In this document: piece by piece, positions 1 to 6,359 of the stretch | Layout of the letters: each line of letters starts with the position of its first letter | Numbering within the stretch: position 1 is the stretch's first letter | Assembly (NCBI GenBank): GCA_903904545.1 | Contig: CAIVDB010000004.1 | Coordinates: 1 to 6,359, forward strand | Direction: 5' to 3' | Source of the DNA: an uncultured bacterium | GTDB taxonomy: Bacteria; Patescibacteria; JAEDAM01; Absconditabacterales; Absconditicoccaceae | Length of the DNA: 6,359 bases | Position numbers and translations under genes: made by a program | Notes under the pieces: model-generated | Database searches by the model: none | What the model was told of the DNA's origin: nothing | Seen by the model: only the letters and a program-made list of their open reading frames with translations

Positions 1-160
1 AGGAGTTTTTTTTGAAGAGAATTTTAAATTTTGAATGCTTAATGTTTAATGAAGGAGTTTTTTTTGAAGAGAATTTTAAATTTTGAATGCTTAATGTTTA
101 ATGAAGGAGTCTTTTTTTGAAGAGAATTTTGAATGCTTAATGTTTAATGAAGGATTTTTT
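1..160. repeat. Tandem 52-bp repeat array (three copies plus a partial fourth)
   Basis: Copies at 1-52 and 53-104 are identical. The copy at 105-150 is 46 bp: it has lost 7 bp of the AATTTTA/AATTTTG part and gained one base (GGAGTC instead of GGAGT). A fourth copy starts at 151 and breaks down after AGGATTTTTT. Inside each full unit the plus strand reads as five heptamers that all begin AAT (20-26 AATTTTA, 27-33 AATTTTG, 34-40 AATGCTT, 41-47 AATGTTT, 48-54 AATGAAG), followed by GGAG and a T-tract. The array may continue to the left of the window. No coding potential was seen. Confidence 0.95.
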
Positions 161-167
161 TGTTTTT

Positions 168-246
168 ATTGAGACCGTCATGTTATCCAGCTGCGCAGGA
201 CTTCCTCGCTTTGCTCGGTGCCACTACACCAACGCCCCTTATTGAA
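168..246. other. GC-rich intergenic island, unidentified
   Basis: This stretch of about 75 bp is clearly richer in G+C than the A/T-rich DNA on both sides. On the minus strand it contains ATAAGGGG, GGTG-TAGTGG-CACC (a possible 4-bp stem), CCGAGCAAAGCGAGGA and TGCGCAGCTGGATAAC. The words ATAAGGGG, CCGAGCAA and CGAGGA occur in the same order in the GC-rich spacer at 4222-4262. I see no ORF and cannot close a tRNA cloverleaf. It could be a small non-autonomous element, a structured RNA or a remnant. Confidence 0.5.
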
Positions 247-250
247 AGGA

Positions 251-278
251 ATTATAAATTATAGATTATAGATTATAA
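251..278. repeat. Heptamer array containing four TATAAT hexamers (minus strand)
   Basis: On the plus strand four heptamers follow one another: ATTATAA (251-257), ATTATAG (258-264), ATTATAG (265-271) and ATTATAA (272-278). On the minus strand each holds a perfect TATAAT at a 7-bp pitch. GAAGGAGTTTTG, a variant of the GGAGTC/T-tract motif, follows at 283-294. The array lies just downstream of the gene ending at 298 and could act as a promoter for a gene left of the window. It may equally be a by-product of an A/T-rich 7-bp repeat. Confidence 0.9.
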
Positions 279-297
279 ATTTGAAGGAGTTTTGTTT

Positions 298-1158
298 TTA
301 TTTGGTGAGGAGTTTGAGTGTTCAATTTTTTATTTGCTCGATGACTTCCTCTTTGCCCTGTGGAGGGATTTCTGGATTGTTGCTAATGAACTCAATAAGC
401 TGTGTCTTTGTTTCTTGAGCGAGGTCATATTTAGGGATTTTCTCTATGTTTTCAATAGCTTTGTAATACTCAGCAAAATTATTGAGGAGTTCATAATCGT
501 TACTACTGATTTGGTAAACAATCCCGTCTGTGCTTGGTTGTGTACTTGTGGAAATAAATATTCCTTCTTTTGCTAAAGATTCTTTTATTCTGTTCAATTC
601 CTGTTCGTATTTGATAAACTGTCCGAACAAAGGAAGATGCACTTTGATACTATTCAGATTATTATTTTTTATTTCAAACTTTCCGTAGACAAGTACTAGG
701 CCAAAAAGAAAAGATAGAGACTGGTCTCTCGTCTCTGTTGGTGTGCTATCTCCTTGGACTATATATCCTTTTTCGGTATCTTGTATGTGTGTGGAACTTT
801 CTAATTTGAAAAGGTGTTCATTGAGGAGGGATTTGTCTTTCTCACTATATCTAGGGAGAAAATAGTAGACTTCTCCTGTGGTTTCGTTGAATCCTTGGAA
901 GAGATAGAGTGCTTGCATACATGCATCTTTATCAAAAGCTTCTTTGATTTCAGGTCTTTCTGCAATGTATATTACACTCATAGTATTTCCTAGATTTTTG
1001 ATATTTACTATCTTGAGTTCCTTTTTGTGAAGAACAATAATTCCTTTGTCATAACTAGAAAATTGATATCCACTCGCCTCATACGTATATTCTTTGAGTT
1101 GAGGAATATTGGGATTTTCTATAACGAGAAGATGGTTTGTATCGAAGATGATTTTCAT
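298..1158 (-). CDS. Hypothetical protein with a LAGLIDADG-like C-terminal fold pattern
   Basis: This 286-residue protein is not recognised as a named family. The frame runs from ATG at 1158 to TAA at 300-298 and includes one UGA (324-322, residue 279) read as glycine; the standard code would stop eight codons early. No signal peptide or membrane segment is evident. Residues 1-135 look like a mixed alpha/beta domain. Residues 146-238 follow the order helix (LFGLVLVYG, 151-159), strand (KFEIKN), strand (SIKVHLPLF), helix (181-199), two strands (201-206, 212-218) and helix (221-238), which resembles a LAGLIDADG fold. The position normally held by the catalytic Asp/Glu is Tyr158, so endonuclease activity is unlikely. 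A DNA- or RNA-binding role is inference only. No Shine-Dalgarno precedes the ATG; the leader is CT-rich. It is the last gene seen in the series and lies 104 bp after ftsW. Confidence 0.85.
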
Positions 1159-1178
1159 GGGAGAAGAGAGTGAAGAGT

Positions 1179-1214
1179 TAATAGTTTATAGTTAATAGTG
1201 TAGGAGTCTTTTTT
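1179..1214. repeat. Heptamer array plus GGAGTC/T-tract motif
   Basis: The plus strand reads TAATAGT (1179-1185), TTATAGT (1186-1192), TAATAGT (1193-1199), GTAGGAG (1200-1206), then TCTTTTTT (1207-1214). It lies in the leader of the gene starting at 1158, with GGAGTC 45 bp upstream of the ATG. The same layout of array followed by GGAGTCTTTTTT occurs at 4121-4170, also just upstream of a gene. On the minus strand the motif reads AAAAAAGACTCC. Confidence 0.9.
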
Positions 1215-1233
1215 ATGAAAGATCCGACGCTAT

Positions 1234-1261
1234 TCACTGTTAGTTGTTAGTTTTTAACTAT
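1234..1261. repeat. 28-bp heptamer block shared with 3181-3208
   Basis: Four consecutive 7-bp units on the plus strand read TCACTGT, TAGTTGT, TAGTTTT and TAACTAT. The same block occurs at 3181-3208 with one difference out of 28 (A at 1242, C at 3189). Here it lies one base past the ftsW stop codon in the direction of transcription. No hairpin followed by a U-tract is apparent, so I do not call it a terminator. Confidence 0.9.
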
Positions 1262-1262
1262 T

Positions 1263-2399
1263 TTATTTGTTTTTTATGATTTTGTAGAGGATAATTATTT
1301 CCATAAGGTTTACCATTAGTGCTGTTCCTCCATAACTTAGAAAGGGTAATGTTAGTCAGGTATTGGGTAATATCTTGATATTTACGCCGATATTTACAAA
1401 GACTTGGACGAGAATCAGTGAGATGATACCTACTCCAATCATTTTATTGTATTCGTCTCTTACTTTGTGCAAACGAGAAAGAAAATAATATGCAAGATAA
1501 AAATAGAGTCCTAATATAGCGATATTTCCTACAAAGCCTATTTCTTCTGCAAGTGCTGAGAAAACGAAATCGCTTTGTGCTTCTGGTATATATCCAAACT
1601 TTTGCAGTCCCTTTCCATATCCTTTTCCTAAAAGTCCTCCTCCACCAATAGCGAGTAATGCTTGCTGATTTTGTCGTCAGATTTGTCTTGCTTGAGGATC
1701 TACACTTGAACTAATAAAGTAGGTTAACCTTTTTTGGATATAACTAAATCTGTCACTTACCATCCCTGCAATTCCTCCAACAGCAATCATCGCTATGAGT
1801 CCACCAAAGACAATTCGCAGGATGTATTTGATTTTTGCTCCTGCATATCGACACATGATGAGTCACACAATTCCCATAATCATCAAGGTTCCTAGATCGG
1901 GAATCAAAAGAAATACAAAGAAAAGTAATGCATTTACTACCAAAAAAGAAACAAAGAATTCTTTCTCGTTTACTTTATTGCGTTTTCTCAAAAGCCATCA
2001 TCCAAGAAAGAGAACATATCCTAGTTTGAAGAATTCTGCTGGCTGGATACTTGGTAAAAATGGGATATCAATCCATCCTCTTGCTCCATTGAGGGTTATT
2101 CCTATTCCTGGAATAAATACCGATAATTGGAGTGCCATGAGAATGACTGCAATGATTAAGATATTCTTTTCTTTCTGAAAGAATTTCATAGGAATATAAT
2201 AGATTAGTCCTGAGGAAACGATCGCCATCCCAATATTTCTCAATTGCCTGAAAAAGTAGAAATAATTAGATGGATCTCAGCTAAGTTTTCCCTTCGCAAT
2301 CATAGATACTGTGAGCGTAAATGATTCATAAATACTTACACTATAAATGGCAAGTGTTCCTATGATAGTCAAAAGTATTCCTATAATGATAATCGGCAT
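1263..2399 (-). CDS. ftsW: FtsW-type SEDS peptidoglycan glycosyltransferase
   Basis: This 378-residue polytopic membrane protein of the SEDS family polymerises lipid II into glycan strands, normally with a class B PBP; FtsW acts at the septum. Family signatures appear in order: a first membrane segment at 2-19 (PIIIIGILL), GDPSNYFYFFRQ (about 41-52), NGARGWIDIPFLPSIQPAEFFKL (about 95-120), PDLGT, a loop with VDP whose Asp234 matches the catalytic Asp of SEDS proteins, AIGGGGLLGKG, QKFGYIPEAQSDFVFSALAEEIGFVG and PNTGLTLPFLSYGG near the C terminus. GLTLPF and QKxxYxPE favour FtsW over RodA. Five UGA codons (residues 41, 134, 179, 241, 348) read as Gly; residue 348 is the near-invariant Gly of TGLTLPF. 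The length is normal for the family. The first in-frame ATG after an upstream TAA was taken as the start. It follows the VTT gene by 54 bp, so the two may be co-transcribed. Confidence 0.93.
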
Positions 2400-2400
2400 T

Positions 2401-2406
2401 TCCTTT
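2401..2406 (-). promoter_or_regulatory. Shine-Dalgarno-like AAAGGA of ftsW, very short spacing
   Basis: The minus strand reads AAAGGA, one base, then ATG at 2399. A spacing of one base is shorter than the usual 5-9, so either the site is weakly used or initiation is mostly leaderless or SD-independent. No other in-frame ATG exists upstream before TAA at 2417-2415. Confidence 0.45.
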
Positions 2407-2413
2407 CAGGAAT

Positions 2414-2441
2414 GTTAAATGATAAATTATAAATTATAAAT
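2414..2441. repeat. Heptamer array in the ftsW leader
   Basis: The plus strand reads GTTAAAT, GATAAAT, TATAAAT, TATAAAT, four exact 7-bp units. On the minus strand this creates two TATAAT hexamers (2431-2426 and 2438-2433), 27 and 34 bp upstream of the ftsW ATG, which could serve as -10 elements. No convincing -35 element was seen. Confidence 0.88.
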
Positions 2442-2453
2442 GTGGTATATTCG

Positions 2454-3131
2454 TTATTGGGTATTTGAGTTCTTACTACTTACGGGTTTGTTACTTGTAA
2501 TTTTTTTGTAATGTAATACAAATAAGATTCCTCCGATTAAAGTTACTAATGATAATATTATAAATAATGGTTCTTTGAATGATTGTATTCCATTTCCAAT
2601 ATAAGCCAAACTTAGACTTCCACTAATATGTCCAATTGCCATTAATGGCAAGAAAACTTTAGGCCTCATGGTAGATAATCCAGCAAGATAAGAAAGTTCA
2701 TCGTCAGGGAATATAGGTAAAAAATATGCTAGAAACAATAATGCTGTGCCTTTTTCAAAATAATGATCATATTTTTTAATGGTAGTTTCCTTTACAAAAT
2801 GTTTAATTAATTTCCTTCATATGTATCTTCCTAGATAGAAAGCAATTGCAGTTCAGATGACTCTTCCAATCCAATTTAATATGAATCCCTCTCCTATTCA
2901 AAAAATAAATCCTCAGGCCAGGGAAACTGAATAATGGCTCAGAGGAGTAATCACAACTTGTACGATTTGTAACATAACAAATGCCAGTGGTGCAAATATC
3001 CCAAATTGGCTAACAAATTCTCTTATTGTTTCTTGATTTCCAAAAAATGATGAAGGAAAAATATATCAAAGAATCAATAAAATTATGGGAATTATCGTTA
3101 ACATATACCATATAATTTTAGCTTTCTTCAT
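2454..3131 (-). CDS. VTT-domain membrane protein (DedA/TVP38/TMEM64 family)
   Basis: This 225-residue integral membrane protein has a VTT (SNARE-associated) domain. Members of the wider DedA superfamily translocate lipids, including the undecaprenyl phosphate carrier; the substrate here is not established. A hydrophobic segment lies at 5-24. The core (about 66-100) reads LSHYSVSLAGGFIFG, then GFILNWIGRVIG and AFYLGRYIGRK, the typical small-residue re-entrant region followed by the Arg-containing FxxGR element. YFLPIFPDDELSYLAGLSTM (about 128-150) matches the second signature, of the PDD variety seen in TVP38-like proteins. The last helix (about 190-207) is followed by a short basic and polar tail. 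Five UGA codons (residues 22, 73, 78, 93, 105) are read as Gly; 73 and 78 are in LAGGFIFG. No clear Shine-Dalgarno precedes the ATG; the upstream frame is closed by TAG at 3167-3165. It sits 62 bp after the metallopeptidase and 54 bp before ftsW. Confidence 0.9.
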
Positions 3132-3150
3132 TCAAAAGAACGTTTGGTTA

Positions 3151-3208
3151 CTAAAAACTAAAAACTAAAAACTAAACTTTTCACTGTTCGTTGTTAGTTT
3201 TTAACTAT
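3151..3208. repeat. Heptamer arrays overlapping the metallopeptidase 3' end
   Basis: The plus strand reads CTAAAAA three times (3151-3171), CTAAACT (3172-3178), TT, then the 28-bp block TCACTGT, TCGTTGT, TAGTTTT, TAACTAT (3181-3208). The second block overlaps the coding sequence: the final residues Ile-Val-Lys-Asn and the TAA stop of the metallopeptidase are encoded inside it. A near-identical block lies just past the ftsW stop at 1234-1261. Confidence 0.92.
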
Positions 3209-4108
3209 TCTGGTGGTGTCTCGTGGTCTTCGATTGGTATTGTTTTGAACAAACATAGCATCGCTTTTTTTCTGGTTGATATAGATGCCATCAAAGAGGC
3301 TTGCTATTTTATTGTATTTTTTTCCCATGATAGTGTTTTTTCTTGCCATAAGTCTAAAGAGTTGATTATGATTGAGGTAGAGATTGAGACATTCTGCAAA
3401 ATCTTCAAAAGGATCGCTCATGCCATATCCACTACAAAAATCTTTTTTTGCACTTTCTGCTTTTCTGATAAATTCACTTTCTCGTGAGACTGCATAGAAC
3501 AACAGAGATATGTCATCTCTGCCAAATACTTTTCTTCCAAACTCTGTAAAATTCTGATCCTTATTTTTGTCTCTTCCCTGGAGCATCCCTAAATCAAGGG
3601 TATGTCCTATTTCATGGCAAAGTAAGTCAAAGAATTCGTTTTTGTCGATTACTGTTGCTATATTTAGTACTATCGAATCTCGATTTGCATATCCTCTTTT
3701 TCCTGATGTTTTGGATATCGTTACTTGTTTGAGTGAATCTTCTAAAGTTTGTTTCGTTACGAGTGTCTCGTTTATAAATCATCCTATTTTATTGAGATGT
3801 GCTAGATAATCTCCTTCTTCTTTTTCTGTAAACTCTCCTATAAAATTTATTACTGAACAAAGTTTTTCGTTATCACATGTTGTAGTCTGTTCTGCCGCAC
3901 CGTGAATTTGTGGTAGTGTATTGTCGGTTCAGGTCTGTATTGTACTCTCATTAGTTCGTAATTGCCCTGTTTGATAAAGATATTCCTGTGTTGGAGGAAA
4001 TAGAGTATCTCCTACGTGGAAGGTGTTGCTTGCGAGAAAAATATAGAATACAAGTGTAGCTCCTATAAATTTGATAACTGTGTTTCTCTGTAAGCGTATT
4101 CTTTTCAT
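3194..4108 (-). CDS. Putative secreted or membrane-anchored HExxH zinc metallopeptidase
   Basis: This 304-residue protein has a basic N terminus (MKRIRLQRN) and a hydrophobic stretch at about 10-27, consistent with a signal peptide or anchor, so the rest should be outside the membrane. The motif HEIGHTLDLG places the zinc-binding histidines at His165 and His169 and the catalytic Glu at 166. About 70 residues on, EDFAECLNLYL offers Glu239 as a third ligand, a gluzincin pattern reminiscent of lethal-factor-like peptidases (xxFAE). Cys occurs at 78, 84, 164, 225 and 240. Two UGA codons (residues 60 and 110) read as Gly; the standard code would leave only the part after residue 110. The ATG at 4108 has a good Shine-Dalgarno. 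The substrate is unknown; context next to VTT and FtsW genes suggests an envelope role. The family-level call is secure for metallopeptidase, uncertain beyond that. Confidence 0.85.
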
Positions 4109-4112
4109 AGAT

Positions 4113-4117
4113 TCCTT
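4113..4117 (-). promoter_or_regulatory. Shine-Dalgarno AAGGA of the metallopeptidase gene
   Basis: The minus strand reads AAGGA, ATCT, ATG, giving 4 bp of spacing to the start at 4108. This is the clearest ribosome binding site in the window and supports the chosen start, which also places a signal-like hydrophobic segment right after a basic N terminus. Confidence 0.7.
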
Positions 4118-4120
4118 GAA

Positions 4121-4170
4121 TATAAATTTTAAATTTTAAATTTTGAATTTTAAATGTTGGAGTCTTTTTT
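4121..4170. repeat. Five-unit heptamer array plus GGAGTC/T-tract motif
   Basis: The plus strand reads TATAAAT, TTTAAAT, TTTAAAT, TTTGAAT, TTTAAAT (4121-4155), then GTTGGAG (4156-4162) and TCTTTTTT (4163-4170). It lies in the metallopeptidase leader, with GGAGTC 51 bp upstream of the ATG. The layout repeats that of 1179-1214, although the heptamer sequence differs. Confidence 0.92.
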
Positions 4171-4180
4171 GTCTTTTTGG

Positions 4181-4325
4181 AGTGATTTTTATTTGGGGTA
4201 ATATCGTTGGATGTCTTGCAAACCCCCTTGTCCTCGGCGTTGCTCGGACATTCCCCCTTATCTGGGGGAAATCAAGAGGCTTAGTGTTTTTTTTATTTGG
4301 GATAATATCGTTGGATGTCTTGCAA
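4181..4325. repeat. Direct repeat pair: duplicated 3' end of the exonuclease gene around a GC-rich spacer
   Basis: Copies at 4186-4221 and 4290-4325 match over 36 bp with one difference (G at 4198, A at 4302). A short AGTG lies outside each copy at 4181-4184 and 4283-4286, with small indels in the T-tract. The right copy is the real gene end, coding LQDIQRYYPK and the TAA stop. The left copy keeps the same ten codons and stop with one synonymous change (TAT to TAC), but lies beyond the stop and in another frame (offset 104 bp). The 68-bp spacer is GC-rich and contains a hairpin. The arrangement suggests insertion of a small element with duplication of flanking DNA, or a partial tandem duplication. 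Confidence 0.9.
4251..4270. other. Perfect 7-bp inverted repeat (hairpin)
   Basis: TTCCCCC (4251-4257) and GGGGGAA (4264-4270) flank a 6-base loop. It lies 23 bp past the exonuclease stop codon in the direction of transcription. The stem is strong but no U-tract follows it on the minus strand, so it is not a standard intrinsic terminator. It could still protect the transcript end or pause polymerase, or be part of the inserted element. Confidence 0.75.
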
Positions 4326-6359
4326 TATAGCTTGTTCGCTTCCTCATTTGCTATTGAAGAGGATAACTTCATCTATAGTGATATTGTTTGCATAGAGGAA
4401 GAGAAGAAAGCTATTCCCTCCTATGATAATTTTCTTTCCAGTTCCTGCAGCTTTAAAAATATTCTTTCCAACACCTCAAGTAATATTTTCTACCAAAATG
4501 AGTGCTTCTTTGTGTATATCTTTTTCACAGATTTGTTCAAATATTTTTTTAGATTCTTCTTTCTTTGGAGAAAAGATGAATATATTTTTCCCTTCTTGCT
4601 CGGGTTTGCTAATTTCTTGGATGATGGCATCTATCCTTTCTAGGTTTCGCGTTGGGATTTTGGTTGCTGTATAACTAGATTCGTTTTCTATTGTGATATG
4701 TTGATATTCTTTATTACTATTGGAGAGAAAATAAATATTTGTTGGGAAGATATCTACAAACTCTTTCCAGTCTGTATATCTTTGTGCCTCTGCATATACG
4801 AAATAGAAATCAGATTGATTATACATTTTTTTGTTGATGTTCACGATGCCGTTTAATATCTTGTCGAGATGAAGGAGCTGTTTGATCAAAAATTTCTTTT
4901 CATCATCATCGAGATATATTTCTAATGTTTCCTGTTGCTCTTTGCATTGCTGTCGAAGCAGGTTGGACTGATGGAAACTTGGATGCTCTACAATAGGATC
5001 TATGACCATATAGGAATTACTTGTATTGATGAATATTTTTGTTGTCTCGCTAGACAATACTCCTACAAAGATTTGGAATATTTGATAAAAACTATTGAGC
5101 TTCTCTGTCTTCTCTTGCTCTGTAACTACTTCTCCTTTGGCCTCTTGAATCTCTTTTTTGAGTTGTTGCTTGTATATCAGTCCCTCTATTGCATTGAGCG
5201 TATAATGCATGTCGTACGGTCTTGAGAGGAAAAAATTGTAGGTCTTGTACCATCGTTCGGTATCGAAGAAAAAGATTTCATACTGATTGTAGATTTGTTG
5301 TTCCTCTTCAATCATCGTATAAATGCCTGCATGGGTGGCAAGTACGATAGGATATTTTATTTTTTCTCTACTGTCTTTGATAGCTTGATAAATTTTGTAG
5401 TCGGTTGGAGTATTGAGGTCAAGCATCCCATATCCCTTTTGTAATTGGGAAAGATATTTGGCAATAAAAAGAAATTCATCTTCATTGAAATGTCCTTTAT
5501 TCAAAAAATCTTTGAACATCGTCTCATTGATTGTCTGTTCTTCTTTGATAAATCATATATTTTTTATGCCTATGTCATTGAGGATTTTCTTTGCAATATC
5601 TAATTTTTGGATATTTTGGAAGACTAAGATACATTCTTTATTCCCTGCTAAATGGCTCAATATTGCTTTGATAGAACTATTACCTATATAATATCTTTTT
5701 TGATTTTCCCGATTGATTTCTTGCATGTCTTTTTCCAAAGAAATATGCGCAGGTGCTAATTTACTGAGACTTGGGAATTGAATACTTGTCTTGACTACGT
5801 CTTGTGCAGGGAATATTTTAGCAAAGATCCCTTCGCTTTGTTGTCTAATCCTTGCAAATGCAGGATACTTGTCTTGTGTTTGTTCGATGGTTTGTGCTAG
5901 GAAGACAAATAAAGCTAGACTTTCTTTGGTATCATAGAGCGCATCGTGTGATTTGTCGCTACTGTGTGCTTCTCCCGTAAATGAAGTGAGTAGAGGCAAA
6001 AAATTTGGTTCTTTGGTAGACAGGTGTTGCATGAGTACTTCGAGTGCATAACTGGGTGCATAATGTACAAGTGCTTGAGAATGTCTATAGGTGTCTATGC
6101 TCGTTGCATATTCTATTTCTGGAAAAAATTTCTCCAAAAAATTAATATCAAAGCCAATATTGTGTCCGATGATGATGGTGTTGGGTCCAAAAAATTCTTG
6201 TATTTGTGGCAAAATTTCTTCTCTAGACGGAGCAGTTTCTAAATCTTGAATAGACAATCCTGTGATGAAGCCAACGATCTGTTTGAGTTCTTCAGTCTTC
6301 TTTTGTGTTTTGATAAGTGATTGAAACTCTTTGATAGGTTTCCCGGTAGGATCCATTTC
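4293..6359 (-). CDS. DEDDh exonuclease fused to a degenerate DinG-like helicase (5' end missing)
   Basis: Only the last 688 residues are in the window; numbering starts at the first visible codon. The exonuclease domain (1 to about 160) shows exo II in GHNIGFD (65-71) and exo III in HDALYD (His138, Asp143), so it belongs to the DEDDh class. The DxE of exo I should lie within the missing N terminus. The rest resembles DinG: IGNSSIKA (225-232) sits where Walker A is expected but lacks GxGK[ST]; KYPIVLATHAG is followed by FFFDTERW (Asp366) in place of DEAH; and the C-terminal region (GKNIFIFSPKK, IIIGGNSFLLFL, DEVILFNSKG) fits the DinG C-terminal helicase lobe. No four-Cys iron-sulfur cluster is seen. 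It is probably a nuclease with a non-helicase ATP-binding relic, as reported for Staphylococcus aureus DinG. UGA codons at 269, 628 and 672 read as Gly. The stop is TAA at 4295-4293. Confidence 0.88.

Follow-up and report, generated by a model that had tools for sequence, protein, structure and literature searches.

Heptameric intergenic repeats are known from cyanobacteria as short tandem repeats (STRRs), and miniature inverted-repeat transposable elements (MITEs), among them those of the Correia type, are dispersed intergenic elements of about 100 bp with inverted arms that are present or absent between relatives. The subject here is a set of A/T-rich arrays with a 7-bp period that lie between the genes of a 6,359-nt stretch of DNA (the window) from an uncultured bacterium of the Absconditicoccaceae, order Absconditabacterales (assembly GCA_903904545.1, contig CAIVDB010000004.1, positions 1 to 6,359). 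Genome-wide statements are drawn from relatives of this bacterium. With somewhat better than even confidence, we read the arrays as the arms of short (approximately 60–130 bp), dispersed, non-autonomous inverted-repeat elements located in otherwise minimal gaps. Observed in the relatives are the size of the arms, their mirror polarity and position at gene ends, their dispersal, their presence in some species and absence from others, and the agreement of arm types within one element; extension of the element reading to the window rests on anatomy.

An over-representation of heptamers in unrelated bacteria has been described, with slippage as the standing guess (Mrazek 2007, as cited in PMC4679880 and PMC4692102). 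According to MacGregor (2015, PMC4679880), the TAACTGA repeats of Beggiatoaceae, Cyanobacteria, and Bacteroidetes form arrays near start codons and show 7-nt indels between strains. The arrays considered here are likewise heptameric and near start codons; however, one fixed heptamer is described there, related ones being rare, whereas many heptamers occur here and arrays also follow stop codons. The many heptamers per genome rule out a single fixed heptamer of the TAACTGA type. The GGGAATC repeats of Xanthomonas form intergenic arrays, mostly of four units, with some inverted pairs (Rehm 2015, PMC4692102). They resemble the present arrays in being intergenic heptamers that are sometimes paired and inverted, but constitute a single G-rich, quadruplex-prone family, whereas the present arrays are A/T-rich and variable in sequence.

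Heptanucleotide long simple sequence repeats (LSSRs) and STRRs share with our arrays the 7-bp tandem unit, a mainly intergenic location, and a patchy distribution across lineages, but differ from them in that mirror polarity, arms of about five units, many heptamers per genome, and facing pairs around a conserved core are found here. The likeness to MITEs and Correia elements extends to size, dispersal, intergenic place, inverted arms, and presence or absence between relatives; the arms here, however, are variable heptamer arrays, and six transposase families were undetected in three relatives (G012, G001, and G014). Heptamer tandem repeats are already known in bacteria; here they look like the arms of dispersed inverted-repeat elements. 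Among the entries listed from one open-licence library, there was no account of such intergenic repeats in Absconditabacteria, Patescibacteria, or the candidate phyla radiation.

The arrays of the window and their associated parts are as follows (ORF, open reading frame).

1..161, no strand: three tandem 52-bp units, each a heptamer arm followed by an AAGGAGT(C)T-run (period 52, 3.2 copies)
250..281: lone heptamer arm of 4.6 AATTATA/GATTATA units; ORF 298-1158 starts 16 nt away
1176..1262: candidate short-core inverted-repeat element filling gap 1159-1262, with arm 1176-1199, core 1200-1233, and facing arm 1234-1262
1200..1206, plus strand: inner motif GTAGGAG (GTNGGA type), beside arm 1176-1199
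1222..1228, plus strand: facing inner motif ATCCGAC (ATCCNAC type)
2411..2442: lone heptamer arm of 4.6 units of the AATTATA type; ORF 1263-2399 starts 11 nt away
3150..3176: heptamer arm, ACTAAAA, 3.9 units
3181..3209: facing arm, overlapping the 3′ end of ORF 3194-4108 by 16 nt
4123..4155: lone heptamer arm of 4.7 TTTAAAT units; ORF 3194-4108 starts 14 nt away
4156..4162, plus strand: inner motif GTTGGAG, adjoining arm 4123-4155

The 7-base repeats between the genes of the window are real, and with the relatives included they prove general and more organised than the preliminary description supposed. The preliminary description had cited eight heptamer stretches, and in all of them lag 7 leads, with matches at 20/28 positions (20-54), 19/21 (251-278), 12/14 (1179-1199), 14/21 (1234-1261), 19/21 (2414-2441), 19/21 (3151-3178), 14/21 (3181-3208), and 25/28 (4121-4155), against 33–66% in each for the best of lags 5, 6, 8, and 9. 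Tandem Repeats Finder returned eight rows for the window: six have a period of 7, and the other two have periods of 52 and 13; stretch 3181-3208 is not among them. Autocorrelation over the five gaps, including the 52-bp tandem, reaches 0.414 and 0.404 at lags 7 and 14, compared with 0.285–0.297 at lags 6, 8, and 9 and with 0.278 at lag 7 in coding DNA. Once the 52-bp tandem is set aside, the gaps contain five arrays of score 12 or more at lag 7, none at lags 4–6 and 8–13, and four at lag 14, a harmonic of 7. In 2000 dinucleotide shuffles, lag-7 arrays averaged 0.0165 with a maximum of one, and no shuffle reached five.

In gap 1159-1262, the two arrays oppose each other as an inverted repeat, and 3150-3209 is a facing pair in which the core is nearly absent. 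The arms at 1234-1262 and 3181-3209 are identical at 28 of 29 positions, and the 29-nt sequence of the latter recurs in G011 (one mismatch) and G049 (three mismatches) and in none of the other 47 genomes; near-identity within the window and recurrence in these two genomes favour copying over independent slippage. A full element would run from a gene end through about five heptamers, a core, and about five heptamers in reverse complement to the next gene end. The window would then hold variants of this plan: the short-core element at 1176-1262, the nearly coreless facing pair at 3150-3209, single arms, and a triplicated arm within 1-161.

The wider distribution was assessed in 49 Absconditabacterales genomes, with stretches taken from 27; 26 of these and the window were scored, since G048 had no usable gap. 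Many relatives were sampled with no more than 1.4–6 kb of intergenic sequence, and a lack of arrays in these is weak evidence. The preliminary description would have been contradicted by a lack of genome-wide excess at lag 7, and in the relatives this excess is present. Arrays at lags 6/7/8 number 2/44/9 in G012 (28 kb intergenic) and 6/52/10 in G010 (50 kb intergenic), followed by G013 (0/10/5), G009 (0/7/1), G005 (0/7/1), G002 (0/3/0), G028 (0/3/8), G014 (1/2/3), G003 (0/2/0), G011 (0/2/1), and G047 (0/2/0). No lag-7 array was found in the other 15 scored relatives (G001, G004, and 13 more), many represented by little sequence. Shuffles of the relatives' gaps give means of 0–0.6 arrays at lag 7. 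The autocorrelation excess at lag 7 is clear in G012 (z = 10.1), G010 (6.7), the window (6.0), G013 (5.8), and G009 (3.9). In G028 it is weak (2.1), and in the remaining genomes z does not exceed 1.3. Arrays per base are rarer in coding DNA (20 at lag 7 in 425 kb of G010, against 52 in its 50 kb of intergenic DNA), and many different heptamers occur within one genome.

Arrays of the CATTATT type (up to two mismatches) are found in 26 of 286 Patescibacteria. Four standard-code members, chosen by such matches and for good standard-code ORF coverage, have 0/8/1, 0/9/3, 0/14/3, and 0/6/0 arrays at lags 6/7/8, again with many heptamers, including TTTAGGG and CCCTCAA. Genes in these other Patescibacteria were called by a greedy longest-ORF rule under code 11, the code being chosen by ORF coverage. 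One TTTAGGG array, at L227 9000-9055 in the standard-code Patescibacterium G197, lies between two genes; its unit is the plant-telomere heptamer. A further 20 Patescibacteria, picked by handle number, all without a CATTATT match and one (L238) reading as N, gave 0, 0, 9, 0, 2, 1, and 0 arrays at lags 5–11 against 0–0.2 in shuffles, the nine lag-7 arrays being confined to four genomes. The heptamer pattern is patchy in standard-code Patescibacteria and not peculiar to code 25.

The preliminary description also held that the period does not vary, which is correct for the window and incorrect for the clade, where octamer arrays occur. In G028, eight octamer arrays stand against three heptamer arrays. 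G010, G012, and G013 have 10, 9, and 5 lag-8 arrays, of which 2/24 overlap heptamer arrays and some are mere A/T runs; clear octamers among them are CTAAAGCG/TTTAGTCG and GGTTAAAA. Octamer arrays resembling the heptamer ones are seen in G028 (L116 7581-7625, L117 4862-4918, L119 19147-19190) and G012 (L108 1679-1759, L103 2835-2902), and some form facing pairs (CTAAAGCG / TTTAGTCG). G028 also carries long facing heptamer arms of the TAGTCNN type, 125–134 bp in total and intergenic, at L116 8877-9010 and L119 11976-12100.

In the relatives, one family has a conserved dyad core, ACTATNGTA nnn TACNATAGT, shared by spacers in G012; the dyad itself is ACTATNGTAnnnTACNATAGT. The sequence ACTATTGTAnnnTACAATAGT (up to two mismatches) occurs 25 times in G012, 23 times in G001, eight times each in G011 and G014, and once each in G010, G026, G027, and G048, and is absent from 41 genomes, with 0–1 for the reversed control. 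Copies for reading were selected by at most three mismatches to the dyad, and not all were taken (20/23 in G001, 4/8 in G014, and 4/8 in G011 plus one in L142); 54 were read and 54 entered the statistics, one incomplete copy having been dropped and the one in L142 added. These elements bear arms on both sides, with lag-7 identities of 0.605 and 0.607 versus 0.35–0.38 for lags 6 and 8. The copies could have 108 arms in all; 98 of these were detected, 58 of which end 50–56 nt from the core. The inner heptamer reads GTNGGAT ... ATCCNAC and, by a loose pattern, is found on 31/54 left and 29/54 right sides. Most arms are of the AATGAAT type. Minority types are shared by the two arms of an element in eight cases, two of them orthologous copies, where 1.2 would be expected (p < 5e-5). 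In G012, G001, G011, and G014, the dyad-core family is short and dispersed, with inverted arms and several copies, as is characteristic of MITEs.

Eight of the nine dyad pairs have the consensus in 46–54 of the 54 copies, and the sixth in 22. At this sixth position of the dyad ACTATTGTA (L172-L211, L142, and the G012 loci), changes are nearly all one-sided.

Placement and polarity were assessed on 115 arrays from G012, G010, G013, G009, and the window, in gaps of 60–500 bp. Arrays end within 12 nt of a gene in 82/115 cases, against 38.8 expected from random placement in the same gaps. Their strand composition is mirrored: left-side arrays have G>C in 43 cases and C>G in 13, and right-side arrays in 12 and 44; three arrays are tied (Fisher p = 6e-9). 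Across gap ends as a whole the skew is weak, −0.10 to 0.19, with like sign at start-codon ends. Array lengths peak at 32–38 nt, about five units, in G012 and G010 (46/132 arrays, threshold 10) and at 29–35 nt in G013, G009, and G005 (34 arrays). In the four standard-code Patescibacteria, lengths are broad, and 28/40 arrays end within 12 nt of a gene, a count that carries no placement control. Enriched 8-mers in co-directional gaps are chiefly promoter- and terminator-like words by eye, and no pairing signal was found between arrays flanking one gene (z = 0.5, n = 49).

Comparison of orthologous gaps shows that the arrays are present in some species and absent from others. The ortholog of gap 1159-1262 measures −1 to 64 bp and is array-free in at least 10 relatives (G012, G001, G011, G002, G008, G036, G047, G026, G029, and G027, among the matches listed), with one of the two flanking genes often merely 27–50% identical; in G028, again among the matches listed, it holds a different heptamer array. 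Across 301 conserved neighbour pairs, arrays are present in both genomes in 26, in one in 102, and in none in 173. Some core elements are nonetheless common to two or three species at one locus, their arms about as conserved as the flanks by eye, and length differences at such loci do not fall into exact steps of 7 nt (e.g., 14 + 2 nt in L142). Together, orthologous gaps and shared loci indicate that the arrays are neither fixed nor hypervariable.

On the inverted-repeat-element reading, whole elements would be copied into gaps by a factor whose recognition depends more on the dyad or the symmetry than on the sequence of the arms. That sequence may then drift, slippage in 7-bp steps may alter the number of units, and exchange between facing arms could hold both to one type.

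Several results weigh against this reading. The dyad core is absent from the window, and the kinship of the window to the dyad-core family therefore rests on layout and inner motif. That motif marks few arrays and many arrays are single: it was found beside 2/3 tested in the window, 9/44 in G012 (control 3%), 5/66 in G010 (4%), 0/20 in G013 and G009, and 0/10 in G005, G003, and G004, which means that the arrays must belong to several families, or to decayed ones. The minority arm types were defined after looking, and the arms of one core element are no more complementary base by base than foreign arms (z = −0.4). A clustering test of cores by arm type had a mixed outcome, with p = 0.009 for one type, to which an orthologous pair contributed, and p = 0.33 for the other. 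Mirror polarity is not significant in the four standard-code Patescibacteria (p = 0.52–1.0). Gap-end complementarity, own versus permuted, reaches z = 3.7 in G012 and 4.9 in G010, but is also seen in heptamer-poor G003 (z = 2.5) and G005 (2.4) and nearly in G004 (1.9), and is for this reason unused as evidence; in gaps with arrays at both ends it gives p = 0.065 (n = 17), and a half-gap version gives weak differences. As single-stranded DNA, six of eight elements fold no better than shuffles, the two that do being window gap 1159-1262 (z = −3.25) and L077 (z = −2.69). Finally, Y1_Tnp, IS1595, DDE_Tnp_1, rve, Transposase_mut, Transposase_20, and RVT_1 were all undetected in G012, G001, and G014.

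Elsewhere, Y1_Tnp is found in 15/49 genomes, with one match in G011. Among 12 genomes, IS1595 and Transposase_20 occur in none, DDE_Tnp_1 and Transposase_mut in one (G008), rve in two (G008, and G013 below cut-off), and RVT_1 in four (G010, G013, G002, and G004). The mover may be a different enzyme, may have been lost, or may lie in parts missing from the genomes. Contigs C42 and C151 of G008 carry several transposase matches, some in frames without TGA, and are possibly foreign; the sampled G008 gaps are array-free.

Other known element classes were considered and rejected. Repetitive extragenic palindromic (REP) elements moved by a REP-associated tyrosine transposase (RAYT) are disfavoured by the distribution of Y1_Tnp, the RAYT domain, with none in G012, G001, and G014 and one in G011. 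Window positions 175-240 and 4200-4275 are GC-rich, partly palindromic stretches that adjoin arrays within A/T-rich gaps and appear REP-like by eye. The attC sites of integrons were rejected on motif order, RYYYAAC ... GTTRRRY there being the opposite, by eye, of the GTNGGAT ... ATCCNAC seen here. Heptad operators of the omega type were set aside because the heptamers vary.

Five minus-strand genes are legible in the window with TGA read as glycine. Genes were called by the greedy longest-ORF rule under code 25, and start codons and distances are approximate.

298-1158, minus strand: unknown protein
1263-2399, minus strand: FtsW/RodA (Pfam)
2454-3131, minus strand: VTT-domain protein (Pfam)
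3194-4108, minus strand: Peptidase_Mx match, under the Pfam cut-off
4293-6359, minus strand: RNase_T exonuclease (Pfam)

Those FtsW homologues that bear names are from Absconditabacterales/SR1, which, together with the long open frames, backs the code-25 reading first proposed from the sequence.

The strongest competitor to dispersed elements, albeit an unlikely one, is polymerase slippage with a 7-nt preference, in which chance two-copy seeds in non-coding DNA expand, the polymerase contacting about 7 nt (Mrazek 2007, as cited in PMC4679880 and PMC4692102), and mirror symmetry arises from palindromic seeds. The predominance of heptamers, in many sequences, in unrelated Patescibacteria fits this. 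So does the third tandem unit of the window: units 1 and 2 are identical, and unit 3, as previously described, has lost exactly 7 bp (AATTTTA), although one C has also been added. A higher-order array in G012 (L060 12114-12189, CATTATT CATTATT CATCGTT, 21-bp period) likewise indicates expansion by multiples of seven. The excess of seeds and short arrays that slippage predicts for LSSRs and STRRs was, however, not found: lone two-copy repeats at lags 6/7/8 number 40/27/20 in G010 and G012, on trend, against 83 heptamer pairs inside arrays, and 5/3/4 in the four standard-code Patescibacteria against 44 (the array mask being built on lag 7 alone). Expansion from three or more copies only would be compatible with these counts. 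The lack of a two-copy excess and the length peak near five units in G012 and G010 make the arrays look like blocks; orthologous arms are stable between species by eye, and octamer arrays of like appearance exist. Plain slippage is thus disfavoured as the origin of the arrays, while the slippage suggested in the preliminary description stands for later changes in 7-bp steps, as in unit 3 and L060. None of the results bears on the spacing-dependent switch also offered there.

Rather improbable is a second alternative, in which the transcribed facing arms form hairpins that serve in termination, processing, or leader sequences and are under regulatory selection. Arrays do lie near stop and start codons, and as DNA, two of the eight elements have clearly stronger folds than their shuffles. 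Polarity, however, tracks the gap and not transcription, its direction being alike in co-directional, divergent, and convergent gaps (convergent n = 13 arrays), and arrays are not concentrated in convergent gaps (3/31 in G010, 4/21 in G012). Just one of 59 changed dyad pairs is compensatory, with 32 of the 59 at one position, so the dyad resembles one read as sequence more than an RNA stem. Rfam gave no match in the window or in the 10 core-element loci (of 54) compared with it, and the other six folds are ordinary. Least probable of all is templated or reiterative writing, in which blocks of about five units would be copied from a short template in telomere-like fashion, leaving the strand that carries G directed away from the gene end on either side: blocks without short intermediates, outward polarity, both arms of one type, and a sequence that varies while the unit stays at 7 or 8 would suit it, but there is no candidate enzyme, reverse transcriptase being undetected in G012, G001, G011, and G014, and the presence of a conserved core between the arms points to whole elements being copied.

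A bolder version of the element reading, which we regard as a long shot, is that the arrays represent a class in Patescibacteria recognised by its architecture and not by arm sequence: each element would have a pair of arms, each with about five units of 7 or 8 nt, and whole blocks would be written or rewritten in both arms at once. This would amount to a block-writing activity for short repeats, and we know of none in any bacterium; the heptamers of cyanobacteria and Beggiatoaceae may be further products of it. As for dispersed inverted-repeat elements themselves, our guess is that they are probably neutral for the host or at most mildly regulatory. Within the clade, a preferred size, mirror symmetry, position at gene ends, and no two-copy excess turn the question of why the unit is seven into testable ones: whether entire elements are inserted, and by which agent. 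If the arrays are the arms of such elements, many gaps of otherwise compact genomes would be filled by a recurrent element class.

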